Below, in pieces: positions 2,089 to 55,118 of a DNA stretch of 64,000 nt. The position numbers and the translations under genes were made by a program. Source of the stretch: Myxococcales bacterium (GTDB lineage Bacteria; Myxococcota; UBA727; VGSZ01); assembly GCA_023248635.1 (NCBI GenBank), contig JAHFED010000013.1, forward strand, positions 14,266-78,265, written 5' to 3'. The notes under the pieces are model-generated. The model searched no databases, had not been told where the DNA came from, and saw only the letters and a program-made list of their open reading frames with translations. Numbering within the stretch: the first letter of the stretch is position 1; every line of letters starts with the position of its first letter.

Positions 2089-3692
2089 GGGCTTTCTCTC
2101 CCTGGGGTCGGGGGCCCGAAGATACCGGGAGGATCGGGGATGGGGCCGATCATTTTTCGAATGAGGGGCACGTGCGGCGCCATCTCGCGTTTGCCGTTTT
2201 CGACGGCGCGCAGGAATTCTGCCGGCGAAGGCACGACGGAGAGGGGCGACAAGACGCCCTTGAAGGCGACGACGAGGTGGCTCTGCTCTCGGCCGGCCCG
2301 GCTGTTTTCCGACGCGATGCGCATCAACGGCAGAAAGAGCAGGTGGCGCGTCGTCAACTGGGGCGCGAAGGCGTCGAGCGCGAGCACGAAAGGATCGCGT
2401 TCGCCAGCGACGGCGCCGTCTTGCACCGCCCGCCACGCTTCGCGGGCTGGGAGGTTGTCGACGAGGCCGCCGTCGACGAGCCGGAACACTCCCTCTTGGC
2501 GCATGAGCTCGGTGACCAAGCTGGTCATGCGCGGATCGTCGCGCAGGATGTCGTAGTGGATGACGCCCGGCACCGATGAGCTGAAGCCGATGGCGTCGAG
2601 CACGTCGAACTCGCGGGTGCGCGGATCGCCGCCGACGTAGAGCGCTCGCACCGGCTGCCGGGAGATCTCGGTGAAGGCCCGCGTCAGCGCCTTGGCCCGC
2701 GATCGCAGCGTTTTGACGTCGTCGACGTCCTTCAGCAGGTTGGCGTAGCGCTGCACGTCGGTGGCGCGCTCACCTTGCACCAGTCCAGCGATGGTGATGC
2801 GCAAAGGGATCGCCATCTCGTTCATGCGCATGAAGCGCTTGCCCGCCTCACGCACCGCACCCGACGACTCCCCGCTGGGGTCCCGCTCGGCGCGCAGGCC
2901 GGAGGGTGCGGCGGCCGGCGCGCCCAAGGGCAGCTCGCCCGAGACCTCGGGACCGTCGACGAGAAATTCGTGGCCGATCACCTCGCGCAGCGAGAGCTTC
3001 AGGGTCGCCGGCAAACCAAAACGACTCTCGGTGTCGAAGAGGCGAAAGACCTTGCGCCACGAGAGTCGCTGCAGCAGCTGCCGCACGTTGCCCAGCGAGA
3101 AGTGCCGCGTGCGGGCGCGGAAGGCACCCAGCAGCGCGCCCATCGAGGTGCCAGCGATGATCGAGGGAGCGATGCCGGCTTCGTCGAGCACCCCCAAGGC
3201 GCCGATGTAGACGTAGCCCGTGCCCCCGCCGCCGCCCATGACCAGGGCCAGAGGACGTCGTCGGGTGGCGCGGTCCAAGGCGACCGCGGGAAGGCGGGAG
3301 CCAAAGAGGTGCAGCAATGCCGCCCTCTCGCTCTGCACCAGGGCGCGAATGTGCGGCATCTGCGCGCGCACGCCGTCGCGTTCGATGCGCGCTGCACTCA
3401 CGCAAGGTTCGAGCTTTTGAAACAGCAGGCGCCGAAAGCCATCCGTGGCGTGGCCCAAGTCGACGACGACGGCGTCGCCTTCGTGGGGCAGCACCTGCAC
3501 CGCGCTGATGCGGGCGAGCGAGAGGGCCCAACGCAGCGTGCTCTCGTCGTGGGGGGCCAACCAGGTGGGGTCGGCGACGACGGAGCGCATGAGCTCCAGC
3601 TCGATCTTGGCCAGCTCGCGCACGAGGGGCCGTCGCTGTTCTGGCGGTCCATCGTGGTGGTGATGGGAGGGGACAGGCACGACCCGGCGCAC
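2085..3692 (-). CDS. Patatin-like phospholipase family protein
   Basis: Predicted serine lipid acyl hydrolase. Family marks seen: glycine-rich oxyanion loop [20 protein letters not shown], nucleophile elbow GTSMG, and the catalytic Asp of the dyad in [11 protein letters not shown]. It has 535 residues, with about 150 before the patatin fold and a His run (SHHHHD) near residue 10. No clear signal peptide, so likely cytosolic or peripheral. The start is uncertain: the GTG at 3692 lies 23 bp after the HTH gene, and no strong ribosome site is visible. Residues 257-268 ([12 protein letters not shown]) are encoded by a palindromic repeat (2889-2924) that looks like an in-frame insertion between catalytic motifs. 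Natural substrate unknown. Confidence 0.85.
2889..2924. repeat. Palindromic repeat copy inside the patatin gene
   Basis: This 36-bp GC-rich palindrome (arms GGCGCGC and GCGCGCC, inner GGCC pair) matches the 46-48 bp elements at 31469-31514, 38014-38061 and 38526-38573 over its left half. It is a multiple of three and keeps the patatin frame open, adding 12 residues ending in SGLRA. The ftsQ copy read in the same orientation also ends in FGLRA. Confidence 0.65.
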
Positions 3693-3715
3693 CTTGGGGG
3701 CTGCAGCTCAGGCGG

Positions 3716-4183
3716 TCAAGCGCCGTCGACGTCGTCGCTGCCTTGCAAGCCCGCGCGCACCTTGAGCAGCGCCAGCGCCTCGAGCTGGCGCACGCGTTCT
3801 CGGGTGAGGTTCAACAAGCCGCCGACGTCTTCGAGGGTCAACCCTCCCTCCTCGGCGATGTCGAGGGCGCACGAGCAAGTGAGGTCAGCGGGTTCGCGAT
3901 CGGGGAAGTTGAGCTTGAGAGAGCCCGTGCGTGGATTGACGTCGAGATAGAGATGGAAGCGACACGACACCCACGGACACGGCCGGATCCCCCCGCGGCA
4001 CTGGTCCCGCGAAACCGGAGCCTCCAGGTCACCATCGTCGTCGCCGTCGTCGTCGCTGATGATGACCAGAGATCGGCGGGCGCGCTGCAATTCGCGGGGC
4101 GACTCGGTGAGAGGGCGCCGTCGACGTCTCGACGCAGGTGCCCGTCCGCCGCCGTCGGGGCGGCCCAGGTTGAGGGTGACCAT
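3716..4183 (-). CDS. Sigma-region-4-like HTH protein with cysteine motif
   Basis: Small putative DNA-binding protein, 155 residues. The C-terminal half has a sigma-70 region 4-like helix-turn-helix ([21 protein letters not shown]). The middle carries a conserved-looking block with [22 protein letters not shown] and DLTCSCALD; five cysteines are spaced so that metal binding is possible. From memory, short proteins with this CPW-C...[12 protein letters not shown] block and sigma-like HTH are widespread in myxobacteria and relatives, annotated only as sigma factor-like HTH proteins. The N-terminus is basic and then acidic ([11 protein letters not shown]). A GGAGAG sequence precedes the ATG at 4183. 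It heads the operon with patatin and ilvE and may regulate it; that role is inference. It lacks sigma regions 1-3, so it is not a full sigma factor. Confidence 0.75.
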
Positions 4184-4231
4184 GGTGTCTCTCCAGTCTG
4201 GTGAAGGCCCGACGGGCGACAGAGGAAGGGT

Positions 4232-4382
4232 CTAGCAGGGTGCGGAAAAACTCCGTTTTTCGCACCCTGCTGTACTTCCGGAGGGTCTGTCCCAGACCCT
4301 CCCTCGTCGAGGCGAAGCCTCGACGAGCCTCCCTCCCAAGGACGCGTCTGCCTCAAAACTTCGTTTTTCAGCAGCCTGCTAG
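4232..4382. mobile_element. MITE-like element with CTAG ends
   Basis: A 151-bp non-coding element bounded by CTAG at 4232-4235 and 4379-4382. The ends are imperfect terminal inverted repeats: left AGCAGGGTGCGGAAAAAC and, read inward from the right, AGCAGGCTGCTGAAAAAC (16 of 18 match). Inside are three hairpins in a row: GCAGGGTGCG...CGCACCCTGC, GGAGGGTCTG...CAGACCCTCC, and CTCGTCGAGGC-GAA-GCCTCGACGAG. No transposase frame is present. CTAG may be a target duplication, as known for some IS5-group elements; the parent family is not identified. The right CTAG contains the TAG stop of the lipoprotein gene at 4379-5299. Confidence 0.65.
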
Positions 4383-5299
4383 TGACCGATCTGAGCGAAC
4401 ATGCCGTTTTCAGGTTCGAAGTAGCCGACGACGACGCCCGTGGCCGCCTCGTCGACGTCGCCGTCGGCGTCGATGGCTTCACGCACCCCCTCGAAGCGAA
4501 CGACCAGCACGTAGTCGATGGCGGGCTCGAGGGAGGGCTCGTCGGTCTCGGTGCGCCCCACGAGCTCCAAGCCCGTGTCGACGTTGACGTTGTGCAGCAC
4601 CTCTGATCTTTCGCTGGTCTCTTTCAGGTTGCGCTCGACGACACCGCGGCGGACGGAGAGGTCGGGTTGATCGGCGAGCTCGTTGTGGCTGCGGGTCAGG
4701 CTGCGGCCGGTGCCGGGGCGCGTGACCCACTCGCCCTCGGCCATCACCTTGGTCTCGACGATCTGAAAAGCGCGGCCGCCGCCCATGCTGCGCCCGTGGC
4801 GCGCAGCCCCGCGCAAGATGAGGGTGCGACCAACGTAGCTCTCGGGTTCGGCCAGAGCGGCCTGCAGCGAGTACACGGGCATCTTGCGGCGCCGCAGCAG
4901 CCGCAGGTCGTTGCCGACGTCGCCGCCGCGCACCGCGATCACATGGGCCAGCAGGAGAGCAGCGTCGGGGTCGGCGGCCATGGGCTCAGCCCAGATTCCT
5001 TCGATGAGGATCTCGAGGTTGGAGAAGTCGTTGCGGCGAATGCAGTGGCGCATCACGGCCCACCCGCGCGGGGGATCCTTTTTGTGCATGGCCCGCGCGG
5101 TCTGCTCACAAGCCCGAGCGATGTCGTGGGCGGCGGCGATGCGGCGGGCCTCGTCGTCTTTGAGCTCGGCCCGCACCAAGGTCTCGGGCTCGCGCGCGTC
5201 CTCCCACAACACGGTGGGCTCGGTGCCGACGCCTTGGGACGTCGTCGAGCAGCCCGACCACACAGCGACCACGACGACGAAGCACGACAGGCGCAACAT
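4379..5299 (-). CDS. Putative lipoprotein of unknown function
   Basis: A 306-residue predicted lipoprotein: hydrophobic N-terminus then lipobox WSGC, giving an N-terminal Cys at about residue 17. A helical region with CEQTARAM and AVMRHCIRRNDF follows, then a beta-rich stretch starting near SYVGRTLILRGAARHG that resembles domains of other myxobacterial lipoproteins handling gene-product assembly, but I do not recognise a named family. Its stop codon TAG sits in the CTAG end of the adjacent MITE-like element, so the element may have changed the original C-terminus. It lies 12 bp after the gene at 5312-5911 and is probably cotranscribed with it. Confidence 0.7.
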   Translation of the reverse strand: MLRLSCFVVVVAVWSGCSTTSQGVGTEPTVLWEDAREPETLVRAELKDDEARRIAAAHDIARACEQTARAMHKKDPPRGWAVMRHCIRRNDFSNLEILIEGIWAEPMAADPDAALLLAHVIAVRGGDVGNDLRLLRRRKMPVYSLQAALAEPESYVGRTLILRGAARHGRSMGGGRAFQIVETKVMAEGEWVTRPGTGRSLTRSHNELADQPDLSVRRGVVERNLKETSERSEVLHNVNVDTGLELVGRTETDEPSLEPAIDYVLVVRFEGVREAIDADGDVDEAATGVVVGYFEPENGMFAQIGH

Positions 5300-5311
5300 G
5301 AGAACCTCAGG

Positions 5312-5911
5312 TCAGCGAGCAGCAGCGGAAGGGGAAACGGCCGGCGCCCGCACGACCCGCAGCAAGACCGCCGCGCAAAAGGATCGGCACCCTTTGTCGG
5401 CCCCAGGCGGCAGGCGGTCGGCATCGACGTCGGCCACGCACTGATTGAAGGCGGCCCCCCGGCCGACGTCGATGCAGCTGCAGCAGCCCTGGGCCTCGTC
5501 TTGGCTGCGCTGGGCCACCTCGGTGACGGCCCGCAACGCGGCGTAGCAGACGGCATGGCCGGGATTGAAGCGTCCGTCGTCGTCGAGGAGGCGCCGCGAT
5601 CCATCGCCCCCGCAGGCGGCGACCTCGAGCTCGAGTCTTTTCTCGCAGGCCGCTTTGACCGCGGGGATCGCCTGGGGTGCCCGGCCGGTTGCGGCGGTGG
5701 CGCACAGCTCGAGGCCCAGCGCCCGCGCTTGGCGCTGGTTCTCGTCGACTTGAGCCTTCGAAGGCTCCTGCGCTCGGGTCTTGCCCTCGAAGGTGCAGCG
5801 GAGCCCAGCGAGCAAGCTCTGGCGGTCGCAGGCCCAGGCCAGCGCGGGGGGCGGCGGCTGCGGTGGCGGCGGCGCGTCTTTCAGGAGCAGGAGGGCGAGC
5901 AAGGCCAGCAT
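5312..5911 (-). CDS. Small cysteine-rich membrane-anchored or secreted protein
   Basis: About 199 residues from the ATG at 5911. The product begins with a hydrophobic run (MLALLALLLLKDAPPPPQ), then a proline stretch and a domain with about ten cysteines (AWACDRQSLLAGLRC, QGCCSCIDVGRG, CRSFCAAVLL). The cysteine content suggests disulfides outside the cytoplasm. No family is recognised. The start is weakly supported: no good ribosome site precedes it, and the longer open frame to 6280 is Arg-rich, non-protein-like sequence. It is followed after 12 bp by the lipoprotein gene at 4379-5299. Confidence 0.55.
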   Translation of the reverse strand: MLALLALLLLKDAPPPPQPPPPALAWACDRQSLLAGLRCTFEGKTRAQEPSKAQVDENQRQARALGLELCATAATGRAPQAIPAVKAACEKRLELEVAACGGDGSRRLLDDDGRFNPGHAVCYAALRAVTEVAQRSQDEAQGCCSCIDVGRGAAFNQCVADVDADRLPPGADKGCRSFCAAVLLRVVRAPAVSPSAAAR

Positions 5912-30277: not shown

Positions 30278-31222
30278 ATGCCACGCGTCTCCCTCGTCGA
30301 AGCCCTGGGACTGCGGCCCCTTCCCCTCGCGGCCCGGCAGTTGGGCATGGTGCTGTTCGGCAATTCTCTCACGCCAAAATCGCGGTTTGATCACACGAGT
30401 CTAAAGATTTTTATGCCCCGGGTATCTCTAGCGACGTGGCTGGGTAGGACGCGTTCCGATCGCTTTCTTCCCATCCTCAATTTTTTCAATCGTACACCGA
30501 CACCCTTCGAAGAAGGCTGGTCGGTGCGCAAGACCCAGGCGAGGGATTGGCGCGGCGGCAGTCTCACCTACGACTCCCACAACGGCACGGACTTCGTCGT
30601 TCCACCGGGGACGAGGGTGTGCACGGCGGCCCCCGGCATCGTCGCCACGATTCGCCGCGAGTTTCACCGCGGGGGACTCAAGATCTACGTCGACCACGGT
30701 GGCTCCCTGGTGACCACATACAACCATCTCGCACGTTCATGCGTTGTCATTGGGCAAGAGCTTCGCCGCGGATCTGAGGTCGGCTTATCTGGTGCCTCTG
30801 GCGCAGACTCGACCTTCATGTTTCCCTGGGCCGCTCCCCACCTGCACTTTAACGTATGGTTTGGCGGTGTCGCCGTCGACCCCTACGCCGCCGCCGATGA
30901 GACCTCCTGGTGGCGAGCGAGAAACGATCCCCGACCCGCGGACAGCGGGGCTGAGGGCGCTCCGATCATGAGCTCCTTCGACGTCGAGGGAGTCGCCCGC
31001 TTGCGCCAACGCTGTCGCGATCCCCACGTCGCTGCCAATGCCGACGCTGCCGGCGGTGTGCAGCGCCAGGGCATCGAGTTGCTCGTCGAAGCGATCACGT
31101 ACCCCACGCGCTTTGCCTGCGCCGAGCCGGGACGACTCTTGTTTGCGTCCACCTCATCACCCTGGGGAGCCCTCGACCTGCCCTTTCACCGCGACGACTT
31201 CGACGGTACCGTCATCCTCTGA
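30278..31222 (+). CDS. M23 (LytM-type) metallopeptidase
   Basis: A 314-residue predicted zinc peptidase that cuts peptidoglycan cross-links. Zinc ligands are seen in SHNGTDFVVPPGTRV (His and Asp) and PHLHFNVWF (catalytic and ligand His), with the linking IYVDHGGSLVTTYNHL between. There is no signal peptide or membrane helix, so export is unclear. The start at 30278 is chosen from MPRVSLVEALGLRP; the longer frame to 30236 is possible. An AT-rich codon stretch covers about 30361-30510. The TGA stop at 31220-31222 is also the first three bases of a 208-bp repeat. Confidence 0.85.
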   Translation: MPRVSLVEALGLRPLPLAARQLGMVLFGNSLTPKSRFDHTSLKIFMPRVSLATWLGRTRSDRFLPILNFFNRTPTPFEEGWSVRKTQARDWRGGSLTYDSHNGTDFVVPPGTRVCTAAPGIVATIRREFHRGGLKIYVDHGGSLVTTYNHLARSCVVIGQELRRGSEVGLSGASGADSTFMFPWAAPHLHFNVWFGGVAVDPYAAADETSWWRARNDPRPADSGAEGAPIMSSFDVEGVARLRQRCRDPHVAANADAAGGVQRQGIELLVEAITYPTRFACAEPGRLLFASTSSPWGALDLPFHRDDFDGTVIL

Positions 31223-31427
31223 TCCCCGATCTCGCTGAACTTCGACCGCGGAGCGGTCTCGTTCAGCTCCGTCGGGGATGCCCTTCCGGGAGGTCTGATG
31301 CAGACCCCCCGCGCCGGCGGAGCCGGACGCGTGGCCCCCCACCAACTCCGCGGGCGCGCTTCACGCGCATCATCCCGCGTCTTTCCAATTCAACACGCGG
31401 TCGAACATCAAGCGGACGCGGGATGAG
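31220..31427 (+). repeat. Multi-hairpin intergenic repeat, copy R1
   Basis: First of three roughly 210-220 bp copies (others at 52511-52728 and 54900-55118) with very high identity. Order of hairpins: a nested stem with ATCCCCGA..TCGGGGAT, GCTGAAC..GTTCAGC and GACCGC-GGA-GCGGTC; then GGAGGTCTG-ATG-CAGACC; then a CCGGC-GGA-GCCGG stem; and a last long-range stem ending in GCGGGATGA. This copy lacks part of the CCGCGTTCCGCGG stem present in the others. It begins with the TGA stop of the peptidase gene. Confidence 0.88.
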
Positions 31428-52367: not shown

Positions 52368-52513
52368 TGAAAGGCCGCTGGAACACGGATCTCAGAGATC
52401 GACCTCTAGATTTGGTGGCTGGAGCGCATGTTCAGCCCTTGAATGTTGGTGGATCCAAGTGGATCAGTCGAGCAAGGTCCCTCGTCTTTGAGGGCCCGCT
52501 TCGGCGTCCCTGA
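52367..52513 (+). CDS. Possible 48-residue ORF ending at repeat R2
   Basis: An ATG-initiated frame of 49 codons whose TGA stop is the first triplet of repeat R2. The product contains LDLVAGAHVQPLNVGG and ends RARSLVFEGPLRRP. It overlaps the mraZ promoter on the other strand and has no clear ribosome site, so it may be chance. It is listed because the two other copies of the repeat also start at a stop codon. Codon use is less GC-biased than in neighbouring genes. Confidence 0.22.
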   Translation: MKGRWNTDLRDRPLDLVAGAHVQPLNVGGSKWISRARSLVFEGPLRRP

Positions 52514-52728
52514 TCCCCGATCTCTCTGAACTTCGACCGCGGAGCGGTCTCGTTCAGAGCCGTCGGGGATGCTCTTCTGGGAGGTCTGGTGCAGACCTCA
52601 CCCGCGCCGGCAGAGCCGGACGCGGGGCCCCCCACCAACTCCGCGTTCCGCGGGCGCGCTCCACGCGCATCATCCCGCGTCTTTCCGATCTCAGAACGTG
52701 GTCGAACATCAACCGGACGCGGGATGAG
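52511..52728 (+). repeat. Multi-hairpin intergenic repeat, copy R2
   Basis: Second copy (218 bp) of the family at 31220 and 54900. Relative to those it has T at 52525 and A at 52558 where they have G and C: a paired change that preserves the stem, plus a G at 52559 that adds a pair. It begins with TGA and ends GCGGGATGAG, and lies between the mraZ promoter and the beta-barrel gene. Confidence 0.9.
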
Positions 52729-54215: not shown

Positions 54216-54902
54216 CGCACCTTGCTCGCTTCAACCCTGCTTGCTTGGGGCATGGTGTTGCACGGCTGCTCGTGCGGCAAGACCGACGAGGAGCTCGCGC
54301 CCAAGAAGGGCTTCCTCGACGACCTGGTGCGCCGACGGGTGCCCGACACCGACCTCATCTTGGGCCTGCCCAAGGGCTGGCTCATCGAGATGCCGAACCC
54401 CGGGCCGATGCCGCCGCCGACGAAGGCGACCAAGGTGGAGCTCAAGACGCGCACGCTGCTCAGCGCCCGCCCCGGCACGCCGGCGCCGGGCACCTTGGTC
54501 GCGCCCCAGCTGTTGGTACTCGAAGATCCCTGGCTGCCGCTGGGCACCACCGGCGTCGACTATCTGGTGGCCCAACGCTCGAGCAACCAGACGGTCATCG
54601 GCAGCAACATCCGCCACGTCGACGCCGAACCCTCTCGTCGCGAAGGCCGGCCGAGCTATCACATCCGCGATGAGTGGACGGTGCAGGGCGGAAGCTTCAG
54701 CAAGGACATCTCCCAAGAAGCCTTGCTGATCCTCGACGACGTCACCGCCCCCGACGGCAGCGCCGCCATGCACGGCTACACGGTGGTGATGACACTCGAG
54801 AAGGCGGAGTTCCCTCGGCTGCAACCGCTGCTGCGCGAGATCTTCGCCTCGGTGCATTTCGAAGAGCGCGATCTCAAGCGCGTCGACGCCGGCACGCCCT
54901 GA
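54204..54902 (+). CDS. Putative lipoprotein of unknown function
   Basis: A 232-residue predicted lipoprotein: the signal MLAHRTLLASTLLAWGMVLHG ends in lipobox LHGC (then SCGKTDEELAPK). Beyond it are IFGLPKGWLIEMP-like and DEWTVQGGSFSKDISQEA segments, and a tail with TVVMTLEKAEFPRLQPLLREIF. No family is recognised; a small beta-rich periplasmic domain of the kind that recurs in myxobacterial lipoproteins seems likely. Its start overlaps the divergent trmL start. Its TGA stop is the first triplet of repeat R3. Confidence 0.68.
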   Translation: MLAHRTLLASTLLAWGMVLHGCSCGKTDEELAPKKGFLDDLVRRRVPDTDLILGLPKGWLIEMPNPGPMPPPTKATKVELKTRTLLSARPGTPAPGTLVAPQLLVLEDPWLPLGTTGVDYLVAQRSSNQTVIGSNIRHVDAEPSRREGRPSYHIRDEWTVQGGSFSKDISQEALLILDDVTAPDGSAAMHGYTVVMTLEKAEFPRLQPLLREIFASVHFEERDLKRVDAGTP

Positions 54903-55118
54903 TCCCCGATCTCGCTGAACTTCGACCGCGGAGCGGTCTCGTTCAGCTCCGTCGGGGATGCTCTTCTGGGAGGTCTGATGCAGACCTCCCCCCCGCGCCG
55001 GCGGAGCCGGACGCGGGGCCCCCCACCAACTCCGCGTTCCGCGGGCGCGCTTCACGCGCATCATCCCGCGTCTTTCCCAGCTCGGAACGCGGTCGAACAT
55101 CAAGGGGATGCGGGATGA
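54900..55118 (+). repeat. Multi-hairpin intergenic repeat, copy R3
   Basis: Third copy, 219 bp, the fullest. Nested first stem: ATCCCCGA at 54902 with its complement ending 54959; GCTGAAC at 54914 with GTTCAGC at 54941; GACCGC-GGA-GCGGTC at 54924-54938. Then GGAGGTCTG-ATG-CAGACCTCC, CCGGC-GGA-GCCGG, CCGCG-TTC-CGCGG, and a closing ATCATCCCGC..GCGGGATGAT pair. It starts at the lipoprotein stop codon and ends seven bases before the convergent aldehyde dehydrogenase stop, so it may end transcription from both sides. Confidence 0.9.

Follow-up and report, generated by a model that had tools for sequence, protein, structure and literature searches.

The locus at 4232–4382 raises a question about the end of a gene. 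A short element with inverted ends is bounded there by CTAG on both sides, and the right CTAG holds the stop codon of a lipoprotein-like gene. The questions are what this element is, whether its insertion altered the protein, and whether its contact with a stop codon is peculiar to this place. The window is the whole stretch of 64,000 nucleotides that was analysed. It belongs to contig C134 of the draft genome G000, called the own genome below.

Structure of the element at 4232–4382

The features of the element and the two neighbouring genes are as follows.

4232..4235, no strand: left copy of the target-site duplication, CTAG, YTAR type, 4 bp (direct reading; 4-mers equal in 20 of 23 complete copies)
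4236..4251, + strand: left terminal inverted repeat CAGGGTGCGGAAAAAC (15/16 and 16/16 matches to the two ends of a Nitrospirillum IS5-family IS)
4234..4271, + strand: left-end hairpin, arms 4234–4249 and 4256–4271 (inverted repeat, 94% complementary; DNA fold)
4276..4346, + strand: double-hairpin core module (core model R1, 80 bits; structure and covariation)
4280..4302, + strand: core hairpin 1, GGAGGGTCTG-TCC-CAGACCCTCC (sequence, DNA fold, core alignment)
4303..4327, + strand: core hairpin 2, CTCGTCGAGG-CGAAG-CCTCGACGAG (sequence, DNA fold, core alignment)
4363..4378, − strand: right terminal inverted repeat CAGGCTGCTGAAAAAC (16/16 identical to the left end of the IS at L111)
4379..4382, no strand: right copy of the target-site duplication, CTAG (minus-strand 4379–4381 is the TAG stop of the lipoprotein gene)
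4379..5299, − strand: lipoprotein-like gene, 306 aa (no Pfam or NCBIfam family; homologue in genome G003 with the same C-terminus)
3716..4183, − strand: Sigma70 region 4 domain protein, the next gene downstream of the lipoprotein gene (adjoins the lipoprotein homologue in G003 too)

The earlier note had described a CTAG-bounded 151-bp element with inverted ends at these coordinates, and direct reading agreed with it exactly. The two ends were alike at 14 of 16 bases without CTAG and at 18 of 20 with it. The region 4220–4400, folded as DNA, reached −50.2 kcal/mol (z −7.3); shuffled versions averaged −26.5, and none of 200 came as low. The right end formed a weak hairpin in this fold, besides the left-end hairpin and the two internal ones. 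No known Rfam RNA family matched above its gathering score in 3500–5500, and no intrinsic (T-tract) terminator, with a GC-rich hairpin followed by a T run, was found in 3700–5400. The plasmid records gave no match to the 151-bp element.

Copies, target duplication and transposase type

The search for other copies, which had been suggested from the sequence of the ends, was carried out in the own genome and gave at least 61 matches to the element. At least 40 of them were long (at least 116 aligned bases, E <= 2.1e-53, 96–100% identical), this count being a lower bound as 40 of the 88 first-look candidates were scored. The short matches came from the left arm, which matched its own hairpin partner. 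A search with the end pattern, followed by reading of the places, added five more partial copies (L091, L092, L093, L102, L103), two of which (L091, L092) were deletion forms of about 85 bp. The element was therefore present at at least 45 places in the own genome, and the true copy number lies above this count because several contigs stop inside a copy. Identical 143-bp interiors with differing flanks were observed at 7 of 30 loci, from which a recent spread follows. The contig ends L006/L012 and L011/L014 shared flank sequence at the element, and the assembly is broken or misjoined there.

The tests on the 151-bp element and its copies (family A) were based on 23 complete internal copies. 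Contig-end copies (L006, L011, L012, L014), copies with damaged ends (L015, L023, L027, L094), contig-end or truncated copies (L095–L102, L104, L105), the partial copies L091–L093 and L103, and L106 were left out, as was family B (L087–L090). Family B, on contigs C63, C80, C93 and C102 of the own genome, is an IS5-ended MITE with the end CAGGCTGCGGAAAAAC and a diverged core, flanked in part by TTAG. The end tetranucleotides of family A were equal in 20 of the 23 copies (9 CTAG/CTAG, 8 CTAA/CTAA and 3 TTAG/TTAG) and unequal in 3, and 0 of 100,000 shuffles reached 20 equal pairs. CTAA/CTAA and TTAG/TTAG are direct repeats and not inverted ones; hence, the tetranucleotide is a duplicated target that lies outside the inverted ends.

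The target motif and the end pattern were then searched together across the phylum. A match was found in 14 of 195 genomes, and complete ISs were found in other genomes. The IS at L111 was 1332 bp long, flanked by CTAG/CTAG, and its transposase matched NF033581 (IS5 family) at 235 bits against a cut-off of 140. The right end of the element was identical to the left end of this IS at 16 of 16 positions. A scan of GTDB contigs for such ends returned 40 stretches from many phyla; those with a recognisable partner end were mostly MITE-sized, and several had equal 4-mers. One locus in Nitrospirillum (L203) held a 1320-bp IS with CTAA/CTAA and an IS5 transposase at 273 bits, whose ends matched the left end of the element at 16/16 and 15/16. 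Moreover, a plasmid relative annotated as ISAzs10 had related ends and TTAG/TTAG. The duplicated motif of IS5 is given in print as YTAR (PMC10359306). Unrelated bacteria such as Paramagnetospirillum and Niveispirillum also had elements of MITE size with this end type and equal 4-mers, all of them lacking the core (L182, L202, L188, L181, L164).

No such transposase was found intact in the own genome. DUF772 gave no match there, the L111 transposase protein gave none, and NF033581 gave only one 23-bit N-terminal remnant, on contig C65. The draft is 96.7% complete and many of its contigs end inside an element, so an intact IS5-type partner may have escaped assembly. The transposase with the same ends that the earlier note had proposed to look for thus exists as a type in other genomes (L111, L203), whereas none was found intact in the own draft. 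DDE_Tnp_1 matched the own genome twice, at L107 (contig C5) and L108 (contig C59), and both were rejected as autonomous partners. L107 is of the IS4 type (NF033590) and element-type ends were absent from it; they were also absent from L108, most of whose sequence was, by eye, common with L107. The transposase genes of L107 (IS4 type) and L108 (apparently the same type) directly adjoin pieces of another repeat family, family E, of which they are a possible source or victim.

The element shares with IS5-family ISs (NF033581 type; annotated example ISAzs10) the 16-bp ends of the CAGGNTGCNGAAAAAC type and the 4-bp YTAR duplication. Those ISs carry a transposase gene, whereas the element is 151 bp long without one. 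Conversely, the double-hairpin core that the element carries was searched for at the IS-bearing loci L111 and L169 and was not found. The ends common with ISs, the 4-bp YTAR duplication, and the short, multi-copy form without a transposase gene are the marks of an IS5-family MITE, and the MITE-like character noted earlier was borne out by the many copies and these shared ends. Hence, the element is very probably a non-autonomous IS5-type MITE. The CTAG doubled by its insertion contained the stop of the lipoprotein gene beforehand, and the protein was left unchanged. An IS5-family transposase of this type, now lost, unassembled or broken in the own genome, would have acted in trans: after recognition of both 16-bp ends, it would have made a 4-base staggered cut at YTAR and pasted the element in. 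As an IS5-type MITE, the element is ordinary. MITEAba12 and other bacterial MITEs (PMC6382973; PMC2229807) are likewise short and non-coding, with inverted ends common with a larger IS and with target duplications. MITEAba12 makes 9-bp duplications and truncated genes, whereas the present element duplicates YTAR, occurs in excess on stop codons and left the protein unchanged.

The hairpins near the ends of the element, with a tetranucleotide beside them, also recall repeats of the REP/BIME kind that a single-strand Y1 transposase (RAYT) mobilises, for which CTAG would be the recognition tetranucleotide beside terminal hairpins. REP/BIME repeats of RAYTs are defined by a fixed tetranucleotide and by the lack of a target duplication. 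In the present family, the tetranucleotide varied between copies and was equal at the two ends of one copy as direct repeats. Furthermore, full ISs with the same ends encode a DDE transposase, which makes this origin very unlikely.

The minus-strand open reading frame 4379–5299 ends in FAQIGH-TAG, with the TAG at 4381–4379. When one CTAG was deleted in silico, the lipoprotein still ended at the same codon, and the empty site read CAC-TAG. In G003, a genome from the same family and a related genus, a lipoprotein homologue was 50% identical over 291 aligned positions and ended in FARLGR-TGA, at the same last residue as the protein in the window and with no element; this empty-site evidence comes from a related genus and not from the same species. 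The Sigma70 region 4 protein (55% identical) starts within 20 bases of this homologue, with no element between them. The stop is older than the insertion because the duplicated CTAG was in the target. The earlier note had the element donate the stop codon: the TAG stop does sit in the right CTAG, but it pre-existed, and the element landed on it and duplicated it. That the insertion truncated the lipoprotein or gave it a new stop, also raised as a possibility by that note on account of this TAG, is scarcely credible when the CTAG is a duplicated and hence pre-existing target, the empty site stops at the same codon, and the G003 homologue stops at the same residue before the same next gene; truncation was ruled out by the C-terminus of the homologue together with the logic of the duplication. 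The comparison with homologues had itself been named as the check that could overturn that claim, and its outcome was the same end without the element.

Stop codons as insertion sites of families A and E

The positions of the copies relative to genes were evaluated with a home-made codon model, for which 464 kb of the own genome served as training sequence. A coding stop was occupied by 13 of the 23 complete copies and by 18 of the 126 YTAR sites in the 464 kb (Fisher p 3.7e-5), where the background sites called 'other' may hide missed genes. The model called 51 of the 126 YTAR sites and 2 of the 23 copies intragenic. With intragenic sites left out, 13 of 21 copies against 18 of 75 YTAR sites lay on a coding stop (p 0.003). 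According to the codon model, one copy (L024) apparently lies where two convergent genes meet, a single CTAG having served the stops of both. In a check free of the model, 13 further reading frames ended at copies (14 with the lipoprotein). Eight of these 13 matched Pfam at E <= 1e-4, one of the eight scoring below the curated cut-off, and 5 matched nothing. A T2SSE domain (profile positions 3–368 of 370) and a Hydrolase_3 domain (1–252 of 255) were complete just before the stop. The contact with stop codons is recurrent and is no accident of the 4232–4382 locus.

Family E carries the same core between different ends (TCCCCGATC... and ...GCGGGA) and has a 3-bp TNA duplication. Its copies in the window are listed below.

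31220..31426, + strand: family E MITE, TGA duplication, double-hairpin core as in the 151-bp element; on a coding stop
52511..52727, + strand: family E MITE, TGA/TGA; not called on a coding stop
54900..55118, + strand: family E MITE, TGA/TGA; on a coding stop

Of 49 rows for family E in the own genome, the 41 whose right end could be recognised within 250 bp were kept, and L087, L088 and L090 were not taken. The duplication was equal in all 41 copies examined (30 TGA, 6 TCA, 3 TAA and 2 TTA). A coding stop was occupied by 20 of these 41 copies, which were partly chosen from top-scoring core matches and are not a random sample, against 250 of 9557 TNA sites. The excess persisted when intragenic sites were left out (20/40 against 250/2647; p 1e-10).

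Whichever strand is read, YTAR includes TAG or TAA, so that an insertion on a stop codon would regenerate the stop. Such insertions do the gene no harm and are in excess among the surviving copies. No description of MITEs of such kind or of such docking on stop codons was found in the published titles and abstract openings searched. Mycobacterial interspersed repetitive units are like the element in their placement at stop codons or at overlapping stop and start codons. They contain small reading frames, their insertion sites are of the DTGA type, and they are not known to have IS5-type inverted ends.

The double-hairpin core at gene ends

The two interior hairpins recurred in other repeat families of the own genome that have different ends. 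Ten cores from G000, G002 and G003 were aligned and fitted one structure, in which 93% of the cells were paired, a share favoured by the derivation of the structure from the same alignment; 7 of 18 pairs had changed on both sides. The covariation score was 0.289. Shuffles gave 0.140, none of the 500 reaching the observed score, and slid versions did not exceed 0.119. The core model had at least 150 matches in G000, 10 in G001, 21 in G002, 6 in G003, 2 in G005 and 11 in G032, and none in the 9 other genomes of the 15 searched. The core was also missing at all 33 loci searched in other bacteria that have ends of this type (26 of the 40 GTDB stretches and 7 loci of other genomes). The ends are widespread and the core is not, a sign that the two are separate modules.

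In G003, which represents a sister genus, all 6 cores examined followed a coding TGA at a distance of 1–6 bp, in the same orientation as the gene and without family A or family E ends. Among ten cores examined in G001 and G002, 1 had such an upstream stop and 3 had a convergent stop within 75 bp, and most carried ends of another CAGG type. The docking of the core is therefore not universal. At the stops occupied by families A and E, the gene read into hairpin 1 first in 25 cases and in the opposite orientation in 9 (p 0.009), with L024 counted on both sides. Per family, the counts were 10 against 4 for family A (p 0.18, not significant) and 15 against 5 for family E (p 0.04). The window's own copy at 4232–4382 has the minority orientation.

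These observations bear on whether the copies at stops are only the survivors of selection, with intragenic insertions lost, the rest neutral and the hairpins without a role. This account is compatible with the identity of the element as a MITE and has close to an even chance of being right. YTAR occurs seldom in this GC-rich genome, with 126 sites in 464 kb, and the shortage of intragenic copies against intragenic sites is what loss from genes would leave. Part of the docking is accounted for by the survival of insertions that do no harm. However, the enrichment persisted against non-intragenic sites in both families, orientation at stops was unequal, and the structure of the core was kept by compensating changes. 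These three observations together suggest some role for the core at gene ends. The core might, as a guess at a putative role, end or protect transcripts.

We tentatively consider, as a possibility short of probable, that the core is a lineage-specific gene-end module taken up by two or more unrelated sets of transposon ends (one IS5-type with YTAR, another with TNA). Stop codons are part of both target motifs, so that the composite elements would dock on stops without harming the protein. They would install a mobile 3' end, putatively one that terminates or protects transcripts, with a preference for the sense orientation of the upstream gene. What the analysis adds is a countable rule: two unrelated families of mobile repeats in one genome have stop-containing target motifs, an excess on coding stops and a common conserved double hairpin. 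Should this hairpin terminate or stabilise transcripts, transposons would here distribute gene-end signals and leave the proteins intact. In a distant genome of the same phylum (G032, contig C428, L069), three core-like matches were observed in tandem, 78 bp apart.
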